From positions 1 through 23,662 of IMG/VR virus record IMGVR_UViG_3300015163_000002: a stretch of 23,662 nt of DNA. One strand, given 5' to 3'. Position numbers and translations under genes: made by a program. Below are positions 1,989-21,567 of this stretch, piece after piece. The notes beneath the pieces are model-generated. The model worked only from the letters and a program-made list of their open reading frames with translations, was not told the origin of the DNA and ran no database searches. Every line of letters starts with the position of its first letter. The stretch's first letter is position 1. The stretch is from a virus.

Positions 1989-2912
1989 TCACGTCACCGC
2001 GTAGTAGTTGATCGGCGTGCCCGCCCGGATGCGGAAGGGGTCGGTGATGTTCGCGCGGTTCAGGCTGAGAAGCTCGCCGCCGTGGGTCGCGTCGCCGTAG
2101 GTCGCCTTCGACAGATCGGAGAGCGTCATCTGTTGCGGCACCGAGTAGATGCGTTGCTTTCGCCCGGTCTGGTGGAGGTCGCCGAGGAGCCGCTGCGACG
2201 CGTCCCCGAGCGCGCGGACCGAGCGCGCAAGGTTCGCGTTCTCGGGCTTTCGCACGAACGCGACCGTCGCCTCGATCGTGTGGCAAAGGCTCGTGAGTTT
2301 GTCGAGCTTGGACGAGAGCAGGTTGCCGTAGAGGGTCGATTGGTCCTTGATCGCGGAGATCGCGTCGGTGAGCTCGCCCAGCGCGCCGAAGAGGCTCGTG
2401 CGCGGCTTGCTGTCCTTCTCGATCTTCGCCTTCGCGTCGTCAGAGAGGCGGTCGTAGAGGTAGCGCACCGTCGCCGTCTTCGAGTCGAAGTCGCTCTTCG
2501 TCGAGGAGACCGCGACCGCGTCGAAGGGGCGCTCGTCGTCCTCGATGAAGTGGAGCTTGACGTCCTCGCCTGAGACGATGATGCCTTTGCGGGTCGAGTC
2601 GAAGTCGTCGAGGAGCGCGCTGATCGTCCCGAGCTCGGGGACGAAGAGCGGCGAGGTCGTCTGGCCCTCCGCGAGCTTCCGAAAGGCGTTCCACGTGCCG
2701 GGGTAGAGGTCCGGGTAGCGCTCGCTCGTCGCGTGGAAGGGGCAGTCGAAGGTGAAGACGTAGACCTTGCGTCCCATCTTCTCGACCTTCGCGCCGGGCA
2801 TCCGCGGAAACTCGTGCTCGTGGATGCGCGTCGAGACCTTGAAGTTCCGCGTGACGAACGGAAACGGCATCTTCGCGAACGTCGCGAGCGGCAGGTTGGA
2901 GTTGGCGCTCAT
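1989..2912 (-). CDS. Tail/DNA circularisation protein, Mu gpN-like (DNA_circ_N) with LysM-like end
   Basis: A 307-aa protein of the Mu gpN / DNA circularisation family, a baseplate-hub-associated component in Mu-like tails. The start ATG overlaps the tape measure stop by four bases (ATGA). The N-terminal 125 residues match the family pattern: a PF.V start, HEHEFPRMPG near residue 31, then EKMGRKVYVFTFDCPF, and the end-of-domain VKLHFIEDDER. The middle is alpha-helical. The last 50 residues (IYSVPQQMTLSDLSKATYGD, then LSLNRANITDPFRIRAGTPI) look like a LysM-type module, common in hub proteins, where it suggests either peptidoglycan contact or tube-fold packing. It is shorter than Mu gpN (about 490 aa). 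Confidence 0.8.
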   Translation of the reverse strand: MSANSNLPLATFAKMPFPFVTRNFKVSTRIHEHEFPRMPGAKVEKMGRKVYVFTFDCPFHATSERYPDLYPGTWNAFRKLAEGQTTSPLFVPELGTISALLDDFDSTRKGIIVSGEDVKLHFIEDDERPFDAVAVSSTKSDFDSKTATVRYLYDRLSDDAKAKIEKDSKPRTSLFGALGELTDAISAIKDQSTLYGNLLSSKLDKLTSLCHTIEATVAFVRKPENANLARSVRALGDASQRLLGDLHQTGRKQRIYSVPQQMTLSDLSKATYGDATHGGELLSLNRANITDPFRIRAGTPINYYAVT

Positions 2913-5254
2913 GGGCCGGTCCTGACGCCTGGAGGGATGCTGGGGCCAGCGCCGCCGCCGGTCCCGATGTCGCCGGGGTTGGTCACGCGCACAGCGATCG
3001 TTTCGCCGGCCTTCGGCATCGCGCCCATGGTCGTCGTGAGCGTCGCGAGCGTGGCCTTTAGTTCTTCCATGTGGGAGGCGCTCTCGCGGTTCTCGTTCAA
3101 CGCGCTCATGCCAGGCCCGCTGCCAGTCGCGTCGTTGTAGAGCGCGCCGATCCTGGCTCCGGCGCGGCCGAGCGCCCCCTTCTCGTTCCACTCTTCGCCG
3201 CCCTTTACGCGCGCCGCGAGGGCTTCACGCGTGCGGTCTTCCTCGGCGTCCGCCTTGTCCGCCTCGGCGGCCTCCTCGGGCGTCTCCGGGCCAATGCGCT
3301 TGGCCTCGTTGGCCCTTCGGATCCTTCCGCCCGCGCCCTGTGATGCAAGGGCGTCGAACTCGTCGTTTCGGAGCTTGTCCTCCTGGTCCTTCTTGTCCTT
3401 GAAGACCTTGTCGATGATTTGGACGCCGACCGCGTACGCCGCGACCGCCGTGGTCGCGATCATCGCCATGGCTGCGAGGTTGCCGAGCGCCGTCGCCGCG
3501 CGCCCAGCCGCTGCGCCGCCGGCCGCGCCGCCGGCTTGCGGTCCGGTGTTCATCGCGCCGCCCATGGCCATGCGGCCCGAGAGGTTGCCAGTCGCGCGCT
3601 CAATGGTCGCGCGCATCATCTCCGAGCCGAAGGACTTCGCCATCGACGCCGTAAACGCGATCGCGGCCGTCTTGAACGGGTTTGCCGCGGCGTACTGGAC
3701 CATGCCGCCGAACGCCGTGACGAGGGTGCCCGCCGCCGCCCCGAGCTTCATCAGGTTCGGCGCGGCCTTCTCGACCGCGTCGCCGAGATCTTTCTCTATC
3801 TGATTCTTGAGTCGCGTTGCCTGGCTCTCGCTCGTCCCGAGCTTCGCCTTCAGCGAGTCGGCGATCTCCCCCTCGCCCATCGCACTGTTCTTGTACTTCG
3901 AGAACTCCGCGCGGACCGCAGCCTCACCCGCCTTGCCGCCGCCGGCCTTGTTGTAGACCTGCTCGAAGCCGCGCGTGACCTTGCGGGCCTGCGCGTCGGC
4001 GAACATCTTGCCCATCGCGAGGTCATTGCCCTTGGTCTTGTTCAGCGCCTGGACGATGATCTCTTCCGCGTCGAGGAGGCCCTTGTCGCCGTCCTTGACG
4101 TGCACGCCCTTGGCGGCCATCGCGTTGCGGCGCGCGCCCTTGCCAAATTGGTTCATGAACGAGCCGAGCGCCGTGAACGACTGCGCTGCGTTCGCCGCGC
4201 CTCCGTGTGCGCGCGCCATCTGAACGAGCGCGCCCATCTGGCCCATGGCCTGATCGGGAGAGCCCGCGAACTCACCCGCGCGCGACGCGAGCTTCGCCGC
4301 CTGCCGCGCCTGGTCCTTGATCTCGATCGCGCCCTCTTTGCCCTGGCCCGCGAACGCCTTCATGACGCGGTTAATCCCGCCGACCTTGTCGACGCCTTCG
4401 GGGAGCGCGTTTGCGACTTCGCCCGCCGCCGACACCATGTCCTCCATCGAGGAGCCGGTGGCCTGCGAGAGCCTCGCCATGTCGCCGAGGATCGCGCGCG
4501 CCGTCGAGAGATCGCCGGTCTTGCCGGTGAACGCCTGCATTCCTTCGAGCGCCTTGTCCGCGCCGATCGCGTACTCCTGCGCGACCCGCTGCGCGTCCGC
4601 CATGAGCGCGCGCGGGTCTTGCCGCTGCCCGTTCGGGCCCTCCTTGCCGGGCATGTAGCCGGCGTTCGAGAGGTCGACGGCGCCCGTCTGGAGCGCCATG
4701 CGGCTCTTGACGGCGTTGCCGAGCGAGAAGTCGATCCCCGCCCCGCGCCCGATGTCGGCGGCGATGCCGACACCCTGGCGGACCATGCCACCCATGTTCC
4801 GGACGGCGCCCCCGGAGACGCGGAGCGCGCCCGCGTCGGCGATGCGCTGGTTGCGGTAGGAGCCTCGCGCCAGGTCGCGCTCGATGCGCGCGTTGTTGGT
4901 CGCCGCCTGCTTTCGGATCTGCGTCTCGGCCTTCGTCTCTTCGCGGACGATGGCGAGCTTGGCTGCCGCTGCCGCTGCTGCCGCCGCGACCTCGCCCTTT
5001 TGGACGATCTTCGACCGCTCGACGTGACCCTTCGTGACGATCTTGGTGAGGTCCGCCTGGAGCTTCGCTTGCGCGCGAAGTTGCTCCTGTTGGCCGAACG
5101 CGCGCTCTTTCCCGCCGCCTCCGGAACCGCCGCCGCCGAGGTTTCGCTGGATCGCCTTCGACGCTCGCTCGCTCGCCTTGACGAGCGACGCGAACGCGAC
5201 GTCGCCCATGCCCTGATCGACGCTCGCGCCGATGCGGATTTTCAGGTTGGGCAT
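2909..5254 (-). CDS. Tail tape measure protein
   Basis: A 781-aa protein that sets tail length and fills the tube lumen. It starts MPNLKIRIGASVDQ, a common tape measure opening. An Ala-rich coiled-coil region covers residues 50-145 (KLQADLTKIV, a run of nine alanines, REETKAETQIRKQ), followed by the conserved Gly/Ala-rich domain around residues 190-440 (MQAFTGKTGDLSTARAIL, ATGSSMEDMVSAAGEVANAL). Hydrophobic membrane-type segments lie near residues 505-545 and 590-620 (AAMAMIATTAVAAYAVGV). The C-terminus is disordered and Gly/Pro-rich. It is the longest gene in the window, preceded by tail chaperone genes and followed by gpN-like and hub genes, as expected. There is a Gly-rich linker after residue 38. 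Confidence 0.9.
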   Translation of the reverse strand: MPNLKIRIGASVDQGMGDVAFASLVKASERASKAIQRNLGGGGSGGGGKERAFGQQEQLRAQAKLQADLTKIVTKGHVERSKIVQKGEVAAAAAAAAAKLAIVREETKAETQIRKQAATNNARIERDLARGSYRNQRIADAGALRVSGGAVRNMGGMVRQGVGIAADIGRGAGIDFSLGNAVKSRMALQTGAVDLSNAGYMPGKEGPNGQRQDPRALMADAQRVAQEYAIGADKALEGMQAFTGKTGDLSTARAILGDMARLSQATGSSMEDMVSAAGEVANALPEGVDKVGGINRVMKAFAGQGKEGAIEIKDQARQAAKLASRAGEFAGSPDQAMGQMGALVQMARAHGGAANAAQSFTALGSFMNQFGKGARRNAMAAKGVHVKDGDKGLLDAEEIIVQALNKTKGNDLAMGKMFADAQARKVTRGFEQVYNKAGGGKAGEAAVRAEFSKYKNSAMGEGEIADSLKAKLGTSESQATRLKNQIEKDLGDAVEKAAPNLMKLGAAAGTLVTAFGGMVQYAAANPFKTAAIAFTASMAKSFGSEMMRATIERATGNLSGRMAMGGAMNTGPQAGGAAGGAAAGRAATALGNLAAMAMIATTAVAAYAVGVQIIDKVFKDKKDQEDKLRNDEFDALASQGAGGRIRRANEAKRIGPETPEEAAEADKADAEEDRTREALAARVKGGEEWNEKGALGRAGARIGALYNDATGSGPGMSALNENRESASHMEELKATLATLTTTMGAMPKAGETIAVRVTNPGDIGTGGGAGPSIPPGVRTGP

Positions 5255-5260
5255 GGTCGG

Positions 5261-5662
5261 GTGTCGCGCAGTGGAGCGCGTGGTATTCGTAGAGGCGTGG
5301 GCCGACCCATTCGAGACTGCCTCGCCGCCCTACTCGCACGCGCCGATGGCCCGTCGGACAGCGAGGAGGCGCGCACCGCGGCGTGGATCGCGTGCAAACT
5401 GATCCGCGACCACCGGATGCTTTCGGCTGCGCGTCCGCGGGAGAAGCCGCCACCGAGCCCAGCGCCAGCACCAGCGCCGCCGCAGAGTCGCGCGCGCACT
5501 CGATTGACCCGCGGGCCGTACCGTCGCCGCGATGACGTCGGGATGTGTCTCTGCTGGGAATGCAACGGATGGGTCGATGTCGGATCCGCGCTTCACGTGC
5601 TGTCCGGCAACGGCGCCGGAGGCTACGTTCACGCCGCGTGCGTCCCGGAAGAGGATCGTCCG
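5261..5662 (+). CDS. Candidate plus-strand accessory gene: SEEAR helical region plus Cys/His motif
   Basis: This is the only stretch where the plus strand reads like protein. It lies between two minus-strand tail genes, in the 408-bp gap that carries no good minus-strand frame. In-frame GTG codons at 5261 and 5297 are the likely starts; neither has a strong ribosome binding site. An N-terminal helical region reads LAALLARADGPSDSEEARTA then WIACKLIRDH, reminiscent of DUF2786-type helices. A Pro/Ala-rich linker follows, then a putative zinc-binding region MCLCWECNGWVDVG ... GGYVHAACVPEED, with Cys at C.C..C and a distal HAAC. Third positions are mostly G or C. The frame has no stop here and stays open to 6376, antisense to the next gene, so the true end is unknown; coding character fades at about 5662. 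It may be a moron. I assign no function. Confidence 0.5.
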
Positions 5663-6208
5663 TTACGCGCTCTCGGCCGGCCGCATCTCGTCGAGGCAGT
5701 ACCGCAGCCACCGCCGCACCCGCCGCGCCTGCGCGACCCCCAAATGAGAAAGCGCCCCGGGATCGGCCAGAAGAAACGAGAGGTCGTCTTGTTCTTCGGG
5801 GCTGATCTCGGGGCGCGTGGGGGACGCTGCGACGATGGCGAGCTCGAGCTCGTGGAGGAGGTGGGCGATCGCGGCCGGCGTCAGCGCCACCTTGACCAGC
5901 GCGGAGCCGGTCTCGAACCACGGCTCACCGGCGTCGTTCGGGTTCGTCGCGGCGAGCCCGACCGTCCAGCACGCGAGCGCTTCGTCGAAGCGGTGCTGTT
6001 GCACCTCTTCGCGCCGGTCGCCGCTGGTCGCTTCGTTCGCGGCTTCGGTCGTCGCGAGGAGCGTGTCGTCCTCGCCGAGGATGCGGAGCCCGATCGCGAC
6101 CTCGCCAGCGGGGCGCCGTGGCCAGCGCGAATTGAAGTGGTGCGGCTGGAGCACCACGACGCGATCGGGGCGTACGGCGTCGCTACGTGCCGCGGCAGAC
6201 GCCTTCAT
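5663..6208 (-). CDS. Hypothetical tail-region protein (181 aa)
   Basis: I do not recognise this protein. It is soluble and acidic: residues 1-60 hold short beta strands (RVVVLQPHHFNSRWP, GEVAIGLRILGEDDTLLAT), and the middle has a helical EEVQQHRFDEALACWTVGLA. The remainder is helical (ALTPAAIAHLLHELELAIVA) and ends with a basic amphipathic helix (AQARRVRRWLRYCLDEM). It lies between the small membrane protein and the tape measure, starting 8 bp after the upstream stop. That position suits a tail assembly factor or a second chaperone, but nothing in the sequence proves it. Its TAA stop marks the boundary with the plus-strand candidate gene. Confidence 0.7.
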   Translation of the reverse strand: MKASAAARSDAVRPDRVVVLQPHHFNSRWPRRPAGEVAIGLRILGEDDTLLATTEAANEATSGDRREEVQQHRFDEALACWTVGLAATNPNDAGEPWFETGSALVKVALTPAAIAHLLHELELAIVAASPTRPEISPEEQDDLSFLLADPGALSHLGVAQARRVRRWLRYCLDEMRPAESA

Positions 6209-6215
6209 GTCCCGC

Positions 6216-6395
6216 TCAGCGAAACGTCGCGTGCAGCGGCAGCGAGACGCCGCCGAAGAACAGACCGAAGAGCGCGAGCAAGCAGAACACCAGGACGGCG
6301 ATCCGCAGGTACTTGCCGAGCGGCTCGGGGGCGAGGTCGCGAATCAACATCAGCGCGACGCACACGAACACGATGAGCAGAATCAGAGAGAGCAT
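6216..6395 (-). CDS. Small two-transmembrane protein (59 aa)
   Basis: A 59-aa inner-membrane protein candidate. The first segment is MLSLILLIVFVCVALML, then a short polar loop with RDLAPEPLGKY, then IAVLVFCLLALFGLFFGG. The ATG follows the tail chaperone stop by 11 bp, with a GGAAGG ribosome binding site, so translation should follow the frameshift product closely. The hairpin-like two-TM shape would fit a holin-like or superinfection-exclusion protein, but a holin is not expected between the chaperone and the tape measure, and no endolysin is nearby. The function is therefore left open. Confidence 0.65.
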   Translation of the reverse strand: MLSLILLIVFVCVALMLIRDLAPEPLGKYLRIAVLVFCLLALFGLFFGGVSLPLHATFR

Positions 6396-6406
6396 GGCGA
6401 TCCTTC

Positions 6407-7083
6407 CTACTGGGTGACGAGGCCATCCTTCAGCCAGTCGTCGTAACGGGTGAGGGCGAGGAAGGCGCCAAGCTGGGCGCGTGAGAGATCGCAAGCTGGC
6501 GAGCCATAGTACGCGCACAAATCCGCAGCATTACTGGCCCCAAAGAGTCGAAAAAACGGTCGTCCCCATCCTCCGTTTGGGCGAGCCCGGAGACGGTCAT
6601 CGCGTACTCGACGACGGACATGCCGACGCGGCGCGGGTTGCACGTCGCTTCCCAATCGCAGAACGCTTGAAAGAGCAGCGTCAAGCGATCGGTGTCGAGC
6701 GAGAGCGCCTGTGCGACGGCGCCGATCTGCTGACCCTTCTCGTCCACGCCGTCGAAGAACGGCTCGGGGGCGTCGGCGGGCGACTCGTGATCGATGCACG
6801 CGAGCGCGCAGATTTCCGCCATCACGGAGAGGTCGTACAGCGTCGACCCTTCGCGCGGCTCGGCGCCCTTCGACTTGACCCATTCGTGCGCGCGGGCGAG
6901 CGCGTCGCGCCGTTCGTCGCTCGAGAGCGGGCGCACGTCGACGAGGATCACGCCCTCGGCTTCGGGGTAGGTGACGACGCCGTCGACGGTGACGGGGAGC
7001 GGCAGCGGGGCGTCGCGCGTCGGAAACGGGACGGCGTGACGCGCCTTCGTGCCTAGGCGGATACCGGATCGGGAGAGCTTCAT
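6407..7083 (-). CDS. Tail assembly chaperone, -1 frameshift product (225 aa)
   Basis: The longer chaperone form, made if ribosomes slip back one base at the T TTT TTC heptamer (6550-6556). Residues 1-178 are shared with the zero-frame form. After the slip, 47 residues follow, starting RLFGASNAADLCAYYGSP and ending RYDDWLKDGLVTQ. The codons of the last 20 or so residues are strongly GC at the third position, which supports real coding here. In many tailed phages, including Mu (gp41 region), the gene between tube and tape measure uses a frameshift to make two chaperone forms that bind the tape measure. A true single-base indel in a homopolymer (six A on the plus strand) is the alternative. Confidence 0.68.
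6430..7083 (-). CDS. Tail assembly chaperone, zero-frame product (217 aa)
   Basis: Starts MKLSRSGIRLGTKARHAVPF at an ATG preceded by a GAGG ribosome binding site that forms the base of a hairpin. The N-terminal 50 residues are a beta-rich domain (VTVDGVVTYPEAEGVILVDV); then comes a helical domain (SSDERRDALARAHEWVKSKG, LTLLFQAFCDWEATCNPRRV). The zero frame continues 39 codons past the slippery site, ending PSPVTTTG, but these codons have a weaker coding signature than the -1 frame. The position between the tube block and the tape measure fits a tail assembly chaperone, although no family motif is decisive. Unusually, the two predicted forms differ little in length (217 versus 225 aa) and differ only in their C-termini. 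Confidence 0.7.
   Translation of the reverse strand: MKLSRSGIRLGTKARHAVPFPTRDAPLPLPVTVDGVVTYPEAEGVILVDVRPLSSDERRDALARAHEWVKSKGAEPREGSTLYDLSVMAEICALACIDHESPADAPEPFFDGVDEKGQQIGAVAQALSLDTDRLTLLFQAFCDWEATCNPRRVGMSVVEYAMTVSGLAQTEDGDDRFFDSLGPVMLRICARTMARQLAISHAPSLAPSSPSPVTTTG
6550..6556 (-). other. -1 ribosomal frameshift site T TTT TTC
   Basis: On the minus strand the zero frame reads CGT TTT TTC GAC. The heptamer T TTT TTC fits the X XXY YYZ pattern exactly in phase with the upstream frame. A -1 slip gives TTT TTT CGA CTC TTT, entering the frame that runs to 6407. I did not see an obvious strong stem just downstream. Confidence 0.65.
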
Positions 7084-7185: not shown

Positions 7186-7407
7186 TCAGGACTCCGCGAC
7201 GTTCGCCGCGTTGTGAAACAGGTTCGCCGCGTTGGCTCCGTCGCACGGTTCGCCCGCGCCGCAGCGGGCGCACGCCTCGACGCCGCTGTGGATGCTGAAC
7301 TCGCCGATCGCGAGACCGCTCTTCACTACGGCGTCGGTGATGGTGGAGACGAGCGCATCGACCCTTGCTGCGTCTTGCCCGTTCACGAACCGGACGAAGA
7401 TTCGCAT
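7186..7407 (-). CDS. Small Cys-containing protein after tail tube (73 aa)
   Basis: Starts at the ATG in a TGATG overlap with the tail tube stop, so it is translationally coupled to the tube gene. The first 40 residues (MRIFVRFVNGQDAARVDALV, then a helix and IGEFSIHSG) resemble a small alpha/beta fold. The C-terminal half carries the motif C-A-R-C-G-A-G-E-P-C (residues 46-55), which could bind a metal. I do not recognise the family. It occupies the place between the tube and the chaperone where Mu has no counterpart, and it is followed by the hairpin-rich gap. Confidence 0.65.
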   Translation of the reverse strand: MRIFVRFVNGQDAARVDALVSTITDAVVKSGLAIGEFSIHSGVEACARCGAGEPCDGANAANLFHNAANVAES

Positions 7408-11588: not shown

Positions 11589-12056
11589 TCACAGGTCGCC
11601 GCTGTTGGACGATCCGTTGGCGCTAGTCACCAGAAGCCGCGGCCCCTCGTCGTAGGTGATGCCGCCGACGTTCTTCGGCTCGGGCTGCTTGGTCAGGTCG
11701 TAGAGGCGCTGTACGCTTGCCACCACGCGGTCCATGCGAGCCTTCGCCCGATTGAACCGCGCCTCATTGTCCTTCGCGTAGAGGCGCGCGTACTCGGGGT
11801 GCTTCTCGAACATGTAGCAAACGGCGTAGTCCACGACGCACATCTTGATCGCCTTGGACGTGGGCGTCTGCGCGGCCGGGAGCGGAACGGTGTAGTTGTT
11901 GGGGAGGTAACTGTTGACCTCCGTTTCGGCACGGTCGATTACGTCGTCGACCGCTACCGAATCGGGCACGCCACTCTGGCCGAACTCGAAGATCGCGAGC
12001 ACCGTTTCCGGGCTCGTCGCGCTTTCGAGATCCTGCTGACTGATGTACGTGCCCAT
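11589..12056 (-). CDS. Neck/head-completion protein, Mu gp36-like (DUF1320)
   Basis: A 155-aa protein of the Mu gp36 type. It opens MGTYISQQDLESATSPETVL, the usual 'Y.t..dl......' start of this family. The conserved helical core follows: VDDVIDRAETEVNSYLPNNY, then KAIKMCVVDYAVCYMFEKHP and YAKDNEARFNRAKARMDRVV. The last 40 residues are disordered. In Mu-like phages this gene lies after the major capsid gene and before the tail terminator genes, as here. The product likely binds the portal to form the first neck ring. Confidence 0.82.
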   Translation of the reverse strand: MGTYISQQDLESATSPETVLAIFEFGQSGVPDSVAVDDVIDRAETEVNSYLPNNYTVPLPAAQTPTSKAIKMCVVDYAVCYMFEKHPEYARLYAKDNEARFNRAKARMDRVVASVQRLYDLTKQPEPKNVGGITYDEGPRLLVTSANGSSNSGDL

Positions 12057-12062
12057 CCAGTG

Positions 12063-12251
12063 TCACTTCGCGACTTCGATCGCGCCAGCCTCGAGCAAAC
12101 CGACGGCGCACGCGTCGGGGATCGAAACAACATCCCCAGACGCAGCCTCCGCGCGCTTGCCGTCCTCGCCGGTGAAGGCGAGCCGCGAGAGGGCGCGATA
12201 CTTGTCCGCGCCCTTCGCCTCGACCTTCGCGACAGGAGCCGACTGACTCAC
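12063..12251 (-). CDS. Small structural-region protein (62 aa)
   Basis: The GTG start overlaps the capsid gene stop by four bases (GTGA). It is a basic N-terminal stretch followed by YRALSRLAFTGEDGKRAEAA and SGDVVSIPDACAVGLLEAGA. This 'l..f....g....GD.v.l.d..A..L...G.i' pattern occurs in many tiny proteins coded just after phage capsid genes, whose role is undefined. There is no cysteine cluster or membrane segment. Coupled translation with the capsid gene implies expression at a comparable time. Confidence 0.7.
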   Translation of the reverse strand: MSQSAPVAKVEAKGADKYRALSRLAFTGEDGKRAEAASGDVVSIPDACAVGLLEAGAIEVAK

Positions 12252-13456
12252 TGGTGAGCGCCCTTCACGAGCCCGCCAACGAACTTAGAGGTCATGATCT
12301 CGGTGTCGTTGTGGACGACGACGAGCTTCTGACCGCCGCGGCCCTGACCGCGATCCTGCATGAAGAACTTCCGCACGAGCCAGCCGGAGGTCATCGAGCC
12401 GTCCGCGGTGCCGCCGCCGTCCCAGCGGAACGTGATCGCCGTGGCGACGTCCTCCTGGTCGGAGGGCGGCATCTGCGCCGGCTCGTGGATGAGGACGACG
12501 TCGTTGCCCCAGACGTACGTGAGCGCGCCGGACTTGATGTACTTCTGCTTCGCCGTGTAGATCGGCGGCAGCTTGAGCGCCGACGCGAGCTCGCCCATGC
12601 TGGGAACCGCGCCGATGCCGTTCTTGGTGTAGATGTACTTCTGCACCTGCGCGTTGCGCACGAAGTCGTGCTCGACGAGCTCCGACATGATGATGCCCGT
12701 GACGGGCGCGTAGCTCGACTCGATGATCTTGTGCAGATCGGCGAGCGGGTCCGAGGACGCGCCGCCGTTCCACTTCGCGCCGGCCGCGAGGTTCGTGTAG
12801 AGGGTCGAGTCCCAGTTGGCGCCCGTCTGCATCAGGGTCGCGACACGGATCTCGCGCTCGAGGCGGAGCGCATCCATCACGCGGCGGATCGCCGCCATCT
12901 CGGGCCGCAGCGGGCTGTCCGCGTTCGCGAGCACCTCGGTCGGGATGAACGCGCCGAGGGCGCGCGGGACGGTCTGGTAGCTCGCGTTCGAGAGCGTCGG
13001 GTTGATTTCCGGCGTACCCGCTCCGCTCGCGTTGTTGGTCGGAGCGACGCGCGAGAACGCGTTTTCCTTGTCCCAGGTGTAATACTTGTTCGTGTCCTTC
13101 GGGACGAGCACCGGGGGGCACGCGAGGTCGGCGACGCCGTCCGCGAGCTTGTAGCCGGCGGCGTAGTTCGGGAGAGCTGCCGCGATGTGGACGTCGGCGG
13201 TGCCGAGGTCCATCTGCACGAGGCGCTCGTCGCCGGCGCTGTCACGCATCCGAACCGGGCGCCCGAGCTGGGCGGCCATGTTCGAGTAGCAGAGCGATGC
13301 GGCGATGTCGGAGAGTACGGCGGGGTCTTCGCCGCTCGGGATCATGCGCGCGACGGTGTTGCCCGCCGCGTCGTAGACGTGGCCGGTGGCGAGATCGAGC
13401 GTGCCATTGCGGACGCCGAGATCCTTGTCGCTGAACTGAACGATTTGGGAGGTCAT
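12248..13456 (-). CDS. Major capsid protein
   Basis: A 402-aa protein, probably HK97-fold. The start MTSQIVQFSDKDLGVRNGTL is chosen because it lies just after the decoration gene's stop. Capsid features include TPEINPTLSNASYQTVPRAL GAF (residues 148-170, E-loop/spine transition pattern), a long helix PEMAAIRRVMDALRLEREIR near residues 190-210, the P-domain helix and strand AVPSMGELASALKLPP near residue 290, and IYTAKQKYIKSGALTYVWGN DVVLIH near 310. It does not look like Mu gpT, so the capsid belongs to another family than Mu's. The position after protease, scaffold and decoration genes supports the call. Confidence 0.82.
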   Translation of the reverse strand: MTSQIVQFSDKDLGVRNGTLDLATGHVYDAAGNTVARMIPSGEDPAVLSDIAASLCYSNMAAQLGRPVRMRDSAGDERLVQMDLGTADVHIAAALPNYAAGYKLADGVADLACPPVLVPKDTNKYYTWDKENAFSRVAPTNNASGAGTPEINPTLSNASYQTVPRALGAFIPTEVLANADSPLRPEMAAIRRVMDALRLEREIRVATLMQTGANWDSTLYTNLAAGAKWNGGASSDPLADLHKIIESSYAPVTGIIMSELVEHDFVRNAQVQKYIYTKNGIGAVPSMGELASALKLPPIYTAKQKYIKSGALTYVWGNDVVLIHEPAQMPPSDQEDVATAITFRWDGGGTADGSMTSGWLVRKFFMQDRGQGRGGQKLVVVHNDTEIMTSKFVGGLVKGAHQ

Positions 13457-13472
13457 GTGGGTTGGCTTTCGT

Positions 13473-13904
13473 TCAGGCGTTCTTCGCGAACCCGCAGAGC
13501 AGGACTTCGCAGGGGTCACCGTCCGCGGCGGTGTTCATGGCAATGCCGATCGTCGGCTTGCCCGCGGTGGAAGTGCTGACGGTGCCGCTCGTGCTGCCCG
13601 GCATCAGGATGTCACCGTAGGTGATCGCGCCCTTGGCGGTGCACGGGTACGTGGCAGTCGAGACCATGCGGACACGGCCCGTGCCGCTCGCGGGAATCGA
13701 CTCGACCGTGATTCCGATCGCGTTGTCGGTGCTCGCCGCAGTGGCGACGACGCCGCCGAGGATCGCGCTGGCGCCCGTGGGGGCGTTGGCGGTGTCGAGC
13801 TTGACGAGGACGCCCGCCGCAATCGCGGTGACGCCGTAGTTTTTGAAACCGCGCGTCCCGTCCTGGGAGAGCGGCGAGGATGCGTACAGGAAATCCGTTG
13901 CCAT
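13473..13904 (-). CDS. Head decoration protein, DUF2190-like
   Basis: A 143-aa, beta-rich, Ala/Thr/Gly-rich protein: MATDFLYASSPLSQDGTRGF, then VTAIAAGVLVKLDTANAP, AIGITVESIPASGTGRVRMV and a final strand. The repeating 'G.lv.l......A.Gi......' layout matches DUF2190/decoration proteins that trim the capsid surface. It has a clear ribosome binding site, GGAGACACAACCCAC before the ATG, nearly identical to the one before the internal scaffold start. The upstream protease frame reads through 301 bp of this gene in another frame, without a stop. Confidence 0.78.
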   Translation of the reverse strand: MATDFLYASSPLSQDGTRGFKNYGVTAIAAGVLVKLDTANAPTGASAILGGVVATAASTDNAIGITVESIPASGTGRVRMVSTATYPCTAKGAITYGDILMPGSTSGTVSTSTAGKPTIGIAMNTAADGDPCEVLLCGFAKNA

Positions 13905-20882: not shown

Positions 20883-21128
20883 TCACCGCTTCACTCGCTC
20901 TTCGCTCGCAAACCACGCCTGAGACTCGATCTGCGGCGACAGGTACGGCCACGCGCCGGTCACCGTGACCTTGCAGCGCCCAACCGCGACGGTCCCGAGC
21001 GGAACCCGGACGATGCACGGGCCCGCCGCCTTGCGCGACACGGTGCGCGCGATCTCGCAGATGTAGCAGCGGCACCCGAGGACCGGAACGAACTCGCGGT
21101 CGGGGTAGAAGACGTGATCGCTCGTCAT
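20883..21128 (-). CDS. Small Cys protein (81 aa)
   Basis: The start MTSDHVFYPDREFVPVLG is set by the ATGA overlap with the preceding gene. It contains G-C-R-C-Y-I-C (residues 18-24), a tight Cys triplet followed by EIARTVSRKAAGPCIVRV, which could hold a metal. The remainder is beta-rich (TVAVGRCKVTVTGAWPYL). I do not recognise it. The frame upstream of this ATG stays open, but only as an overlap with the preceding gene. Confidence 0.62.
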   Translation of the reverse strand: MTSDHVFYPDREFVPVLGCRCYICEIARTVSRKAAGPCIVRVPLGTVAVGRCKVTVTGAWPYLSPQIESQAWFASEERVKR

Positions 21129-21337
21129 GACGGCGCCCACTGCCCCACGAGCCGCGGTCGCGCCGCCGTGTCGTCGATCGCGTCGTAATCTGGTCCCTCG
21201 TCGTCGAAGTACACGCCACGCGGCGGACCGGTGCGCTCGTCGCGATCCCACCTCGGATCGAAGTGGTCCCCGGCGTGGCCGCGCTCGCGGAAGCACTCGA
21301 AGCCGCCCCTGGTATGGTGACATCCGGGCGCGGTCAC
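21125..21337 (-). CDS. Small His/Cys protein, GH.GDHFD type (70 aa)
   Basis: The GTG start sits in a GTGA overlap with the preceding gene. The N-terminus MTAPGCHHTRGGFECFRERG then HAGDHFDPRWDRD is the motif; the remainder is acidic (FDDEGPDYDAIDDTAA). The gene just upstream begins in the same way (MTAP..C, C-H-R-V-D-G-H-D-G-D-H-F-D), so the two are paralogues. Cys and His spacing (C, C, H, H) suggests a small zinc-binding fold often met in phage early regions. The function is unknown. Confidence 0.62.
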   Translation of the reverse strand: MTAPGCHHTRGGFECFRERGHAGDHFDPRWDRDERTGPPRGVYFDDEGPDYDAIDDTAARPRLVGQWAPS

Positions 21338-21567
21338 GACGTGAACTCCGGGTGCGCGGCCGCCGTCAGCACGAGGTCATGGGGACAAGGCTCACTGCTT
21401 CCACGGAACCGCACGCCGTCACCTCGCGCCGGGCCCCACCAAACGCCACCCGGTCCGGCCGCATAGTCGAAGTGGTCACCGTCGTGGCCGTCGACGCGGT
21501 GGCAGCGACGTGGGTAGGAGCCGAGTCCGTGGGTGCGCTCGGCGGCGCAGCGCGCGGGCGCGGTCAC
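21334..21567 (-). CDS. Small His/Cys protein, GH.GDHFD type (77 aa)
   Basis: Paralogue of the neighbouring 70-aa protein. It opens MTAPARCAAERTHGLGSYPR, then RCHRVDGHDGDHFDYAAG. The C-terminal half differs: Gly/Trp-rich PGGVWWGPARGDG, then a second Cys/His area SSEPCPHDLVL. The start is GTG in a GTGA overlap with the 104-aa gene. The tandem arrangement indicates local duplication followed by divergence of the C-termini. Confidence 0.62.
   Translation of the reverse strand: MTAPARCAAERTHGLGSYPRRCHRVDGHDGDHFDYAAGPGGVWWGPARGDGVRFRGSSEPCPHDLVLTAAAHPEFTS

Follow-up and report, generated by a model that had tools for sequence, protein, structure and literature searches.

The interval of 408 bases between the tape measure gene and the 181-aa gene upstream of it, in the tail operon of an uncultured, Mu/B3-like phage, is read here as the 3'-truncated remnant of a small accessory (moron-like) gene that was inserted opposite to the operon, with a probability of about one half. 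Descent of its plus strand from coding DNA, whether as a remnant or as a gene still alive, is considered likely, because several weak tests favour it: the match to DUF2786, the null distributions, the codon-position GC, the antisense controls and the finding of the Cys/His motif elsewhere. The broken state of the frame was directly observed, as no stop codon occurs before position 6376, neither a promoter nor a terminator match was found, and the GC of third codon positions (GC3) is below that of the other genes of this phage. Counted against the remnant are the want of a homologue of the whole frame in the collections searched, a DUF2786 score below the cut-off, narrow seed HMMs that miss the frame, negative codon usage over the gap as a whole, and the choice of the tests after the motifs had been seen. 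The interval most likely goes back to the usual shuffling of phage genes, and a cargo gene at work is the less likely reading.

The Phage Record and the Tail Operon

The window, that is, the whole analysed stretch of the record IMGVR_UViG_3300015163_000002, comprises 23,662 bases with 68% GC and carries the head and tail genes on the minus strand, including those for the terminase, portal, protease, major head protein and sheath, as well as the tube-like protein, tape measure, DNA-circularisation protein and hub. The terminase and portal are similar, at about 25-31% identity, to those of the B3/D3112-type Mu-like phages. The features in and around the gap are collected in Table 1; for the product of the 181-aa gene, the family searches were without a match.

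Table 1. Features of the gap and its flanks (window coordinates)
Feature	Position	Strand	Basis
Tape measure protein gene	2909..5254	-	28.8% identity over the matched part to the cta39025 protein whose gene is immediately upstream of that for the DNA circularisation protein
Interval of 408 bp without a credible minus-strand gene	5255..5662	.	ORF lists, sequence; no minus-strand coding signal, no family match
Protein-like plus frame, probable accessory-gene remnant; candidate starts GTG 5261 / GTG 5297	5261..5662	+	No stop within the gap
DUF2786-like helical stretch	5324..5413	+	PF10979 below cut-off, phrog_421, own HMM
Pro/Arg-rich low-complexity linker	5435..5527	+	Sequence; GC1/2/3 0.77/0.84/0.71
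Cys/His motif C.C..C ... GGYVHAAC, zinc-finger type by pattern only	5546..5641	+	Sequence
181-aa gene, upstream in the operon, tail chaperone position	5663..6208	-	ORF, coding-like GC3 of 0.86

Some other small ORFs of the minus strand are worth recording. An ORF with a membrane segment lies between the 217-aa and 181-aa genes (6216-6518), with a weak match to the Pfam family Phage_holin_2 (E 0.00067, below cut-off), and an ORF of 73 aa with the motif CARCGAGEPC (7186-7407) takes up most of the stretch that separates the tube-like gene from the 217-aa gene. Two neighbouring ORFs of 70 and 77 aa (21125-21337 and 21334-21567), both small and rich in Cys/His, start with MTAP and have a GHxGDHFD stretch in common; they resemble tandem paralogues.

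The collections searched yielded no close relative of the phage, and hence none in which the site is empty or intact. The scans of the collection viral_contigs with the 181-aa gene, tape measure, terminase, portal and sheath returned nothing usable, the terminase scan of genome_contigs only B3-like prophages of about 26-33% identity without matching tail genes, and the tape-measure searches in two phyla gave no match in one and a single distant match in the other. In the circular record of phage cta39025, the gene preceding the tape measure ends 7 bases before the record end and that of the tape measure begins at base 1, so that the two genes abut; as an empty site this arrangement is only suggestive, because the preceding gene had no BLAST match to the 181-aa protein. 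The same phage (L121, MW202476) is titled Siphoviridae, yet has a Mu-like tail sheath gene at 11982-13541. Of the seven inverted-repeat pairs within 1.8 kb, two are close to the ends of the gap (5259-5271/5729-5741 and 5316-5327/5689-5700) and were treated as chance.

Coding Signal on the Two Strands of the Gap

A preliminary description of this DNA had held that the gap is devoid of a credible minus-strand protein, and the ORF lists and the sequence agree with it: the short minus-strand ORFs are without a family match, and the composition of the minus frames is non-protein. Programmed frameshifts are established in the tail assembly chaperones of long-tailed phages, the gap lies just upstream of the tape measure, and one minus frame is open through it, as would be expected of an extension of the upstream gene by such a frameshift. 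This extension is nevertheless highly improbable, given the lack of family matches, the Arg-rich content of the open minus frame with its composition scores of about -2.4 to -5.0 and codon score of -0.37, and the absence, by eye, of any slippery stretch close to where the 181-aa gene ends.

The further claim of a coding-like composition spanning the gap almost exactly could not be upheld. The codon scores, based on the gene codon frequencies of this phage, are below zero in all six frames over the whole gap. An amino-acid-composition classifier (cross-validated AUC of 0.98-0.99) places the plus frame first among the six over most of the gap, yet below the 5th percentile of the real genes of this phage. 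The total GC of the gap is about 0.70 versus 0.68 for the window. Over the whole gap the plus frame has GC1/2/3 of 0.73/0.64/0.72, this GC3 comparing with 0.78-0.90 in 17 of the 18 minus-strand intervals sampled; the one interval outside this range, 6216-6390 (0.36), was excised in the wrong frame and is no measure of that gene. With the Pro-rich linker taken out, the plus frame is coding-like, its two parts having GC1/2/3 of 0.74/0.61/0.78 and 0.72/0.49/0.74. A scan of the whole window for codon and composition scores at 50 codons was set aside, its noise being too great in the early region and where genes end.

The main rival to the remnant is a noncoding spacer, such as a tape-measure leader or inserted DNA of high GC, whose likeness to protein would have arisen by chance. 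The codon scores and the composition percentile are what such a spacer would give, as are the want of a homologue and the commonness of open frames at this GC, whereas two unlikely features sharing one open frame, the coding-like codon-position GC outside the linker, the clean antisense controls, and an Rfam/structured-RNA search of the gap region without a match all weigh against it, and it is regarded as an unlikely explanation, although the foremost among the alternatives.

Layout of the Plus-Strand Frame

The features ascribed to the plus strand in the preliminary description, namely an EEAR helix, a Pro-rich linker, a C.C..C beginning at 5546 and a VHAAC ending at 5641, are present in the sequence, and the missing stop is likewise real, the frame being open from 3419 to 6376. 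The stop-free plus frame exists only as part of this chance-long antisense ORF of 985 codons; its openness is unremarkable for this reason and because shuffled gaps are often open as well (by a Markov shuffle, one given frame in 10% and some frame in 60%). At E<=1, the plus frame has three PHROG matches versus none for 10 antisense ORFs of 131 codons from the window; one of the three, that to phrog_36950, was dropped as noise, its model matching 8 of 193 genomes at E<=0.01. A single-sequence AlphaFold2 model of the frame has a mean pLDDT of 45 with two N-terminal helices and is too poor for a fold search.

The helical stretch is matched by PF10979 (DUF2786) with 12.2 bits (E 0.006, for the record), which falls short of the curated cut-off of 23.9 bits for membership of the family, and by phrog_421 with E 0.11 when the N-terminal part is scanned alone; known DUF2786 proteins match phrog_421 as well. 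An HMM built from 11 DUF2786 domains, of which Mu-like phages or prophages supplied six, assigned 8.1 bits to the plus frame, placing it 9th of the 19,495 fragments from a six-frame translation of 1.7 Mb and third among the non-seed fragments. The seed set had been enlarged twice, making three tries, with sequences that were not chosen for resembling the plus frame: the five-seed HMM did not have the frame among the window matches listed, and the eight-seed HMM gave it 2.1 bits and rank 84. In the C-terminal part, the ligand set C..C-X22-H..C (5552-5641) has the Cys/His spacing of a zinc-binding type, as a pattern only. Among 3,000 shuffled gaps, a DUF2786 HMM score comparable to that of the plus frame arose in 0.1%, and in 0.07% a fully open frame carried the C..C-H..C motif. 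These frequencies overstate the case because of the post hoc choice of tests and the three seed sets, the DUF2786 likeness having been spotted by eye before testing and the Cys/His pattern likewise taken from the sequence. The combination of features in the plus frame exceeds what chance easily gives, with the caveat that the tests were picked after the sequence was seen.

A DNA pattern search for GGYVHA.C returned nine stretches in viral_contigs, three of which belong to the same ORF of 104 codons with a C..C ahead of GGYVHADC, while the six others have no such C..C in the frame printed. Judged by sequence pattern, the Cys/His arrangement also exists elsewhere in viral DNA. The translated plus frame itself, for which the preliminary description had proposed a homologue search, found none in Pfam, PHROGs, NCBIfam, the PDB, IMG/VR (viral_contigs), or the phage and plasmid records. 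In the 195 genomes of the phylum of UBA5297, weak matches of the plus frame at E<=0.01 were obtained in 24; they are probably compositional, being mostly over the Pro/Arg-rich part.

Expression Signals and the Question of a Working Gene

Within 4900-6300, no promoter-like site was found in a search covering the sigma-70 type, nor a terminator matching the plus frame, the sole terminator-like site being on the minus strand (6288-6300). Only 7 and 43 bases separate the two candidate starts from the ATG of the tape measure, and therefore any promoter would have to be inside the tape-measure gene. A missing Shine-Dalgarno match at the plus frame is uninformative because most of the genes of this phage tested with the same script are without one; two entries in that test, DNAcirc and TM58, were taken at coordinates that are not start codons.

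A live accessory gene is also conceivable, if a metagenomic contig error conceals its stop or if its product runs on opposite the 181-aa gene to 6376. It would share with the remnant the DUF2786 match, the nulls and the codon-position GC, and the want of a Shine-Dalgarno match is no argument against it; the frame with no stop before 6376, the signals missing from its surroundings, the closeness of its starts to the tape-measure ATG and the GC3 below that of other genes are, and such a gene is doubtful, ranking behind the noncoding spacer. The preliminary description saw in the plus frame a moron, cargo expressed from the prophage, which has no support in these signals, in the open 3' end or in the homologue searches; the evidence is against the plus frame as a working gene, and the live-cargo reading is not supported. 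The alternative it offered, a remnant trapped by recombination, fits better than a live moron, in view of the lack of a stop, promoter, terminator and homologue. A live small zinc-finger gene opposite the late operon, read on into the tail-gene antisense so as to form a long overlapping gene pair in the structural module, is very far from probable.

Proposed History of the Putative Remnant

For the remnant, the following course may be suggested. A small accessory gene would have entered the tail operon in the opposite orientation, its original product probably having combined a helical hairpin like that of DUF2786 with a Pro-rich linker and a zinc-type motif of Cys and His. The 3' end would then have been lost where the remnant meets the 181-aa gene, and what is left has no recognisable expression signals. 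Today the interval most likely serves only as an untranslated spacer of 408 bases in the minus-strand late transcript, by virtue of which the start of the tape measure would be independent of the upstream gene. If this is right, the gap adds to the traces left by small accessory genes on their entry into a conserved Mu-like structural module, and it cautions against annotating, as a working cargo gene, an open frame that carries a zinc-type motif in antisense DNA of high GC.

Comparison with Known Systems

The DUF2786 proteins (PF10979/phrog_421), for example, that of Alteromonadaceae phage B23, have a pattern of about 40 residues, LLA.A...E(A/E)A..AA..A.KL...H, which is also present in the plus frame, the identity to four DUF2786 domains being 31-38%. 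DUF2786 genes occur in Mu-like phages and prophages, where they differ from the plus frame in their length of about 230-250 codons, another C-terminal part without the Cys/His motif, and a position ahead of the terminase instead of in the tail module. Such genes ahead of the terminase were seen in L004 (6784-7530), L049 (5373-6101), L040 (3984-4673), L067 (3539-4225), L083 (3969-4652) and L069 (4501-5277), the variant of the last three having an insertion within the helical hairpin; among the loci checked in other genomes, none combines DUF2786 with the zinc motif. The small Cys-rich ORF of 104 codons in the viral contigs L146, L147 and L153 has C..C and then GGYVHA.C, as in the plus frame; it differs in that no DUF2786-like part was seen, and, having been found with a pattern derived from the plus frame, it carries no claim of homology.

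A moron is by definition a single complete coding region with its own promoter and terminator on the flanks, sits between two genes that are direct neighbours in related phages, and has a nucleotide composition unlike that of its neighbours (PMC4378225). The gap differs from the morons of Mu-like Pseudomonas phages (PMC4378225) in having no complete ORF, since the frame continues opposite the 181-aa gene, no promoter (sigma-70 type) or terminator found within the range searched, and no closely related genome with an empty site. It is like these morons, or single-gene accessory regions, in position and size, as a short stretch of different coding character between structural genes, and, as in those regions, the ORF that it holds is small and of unknown function (PMC4378225).
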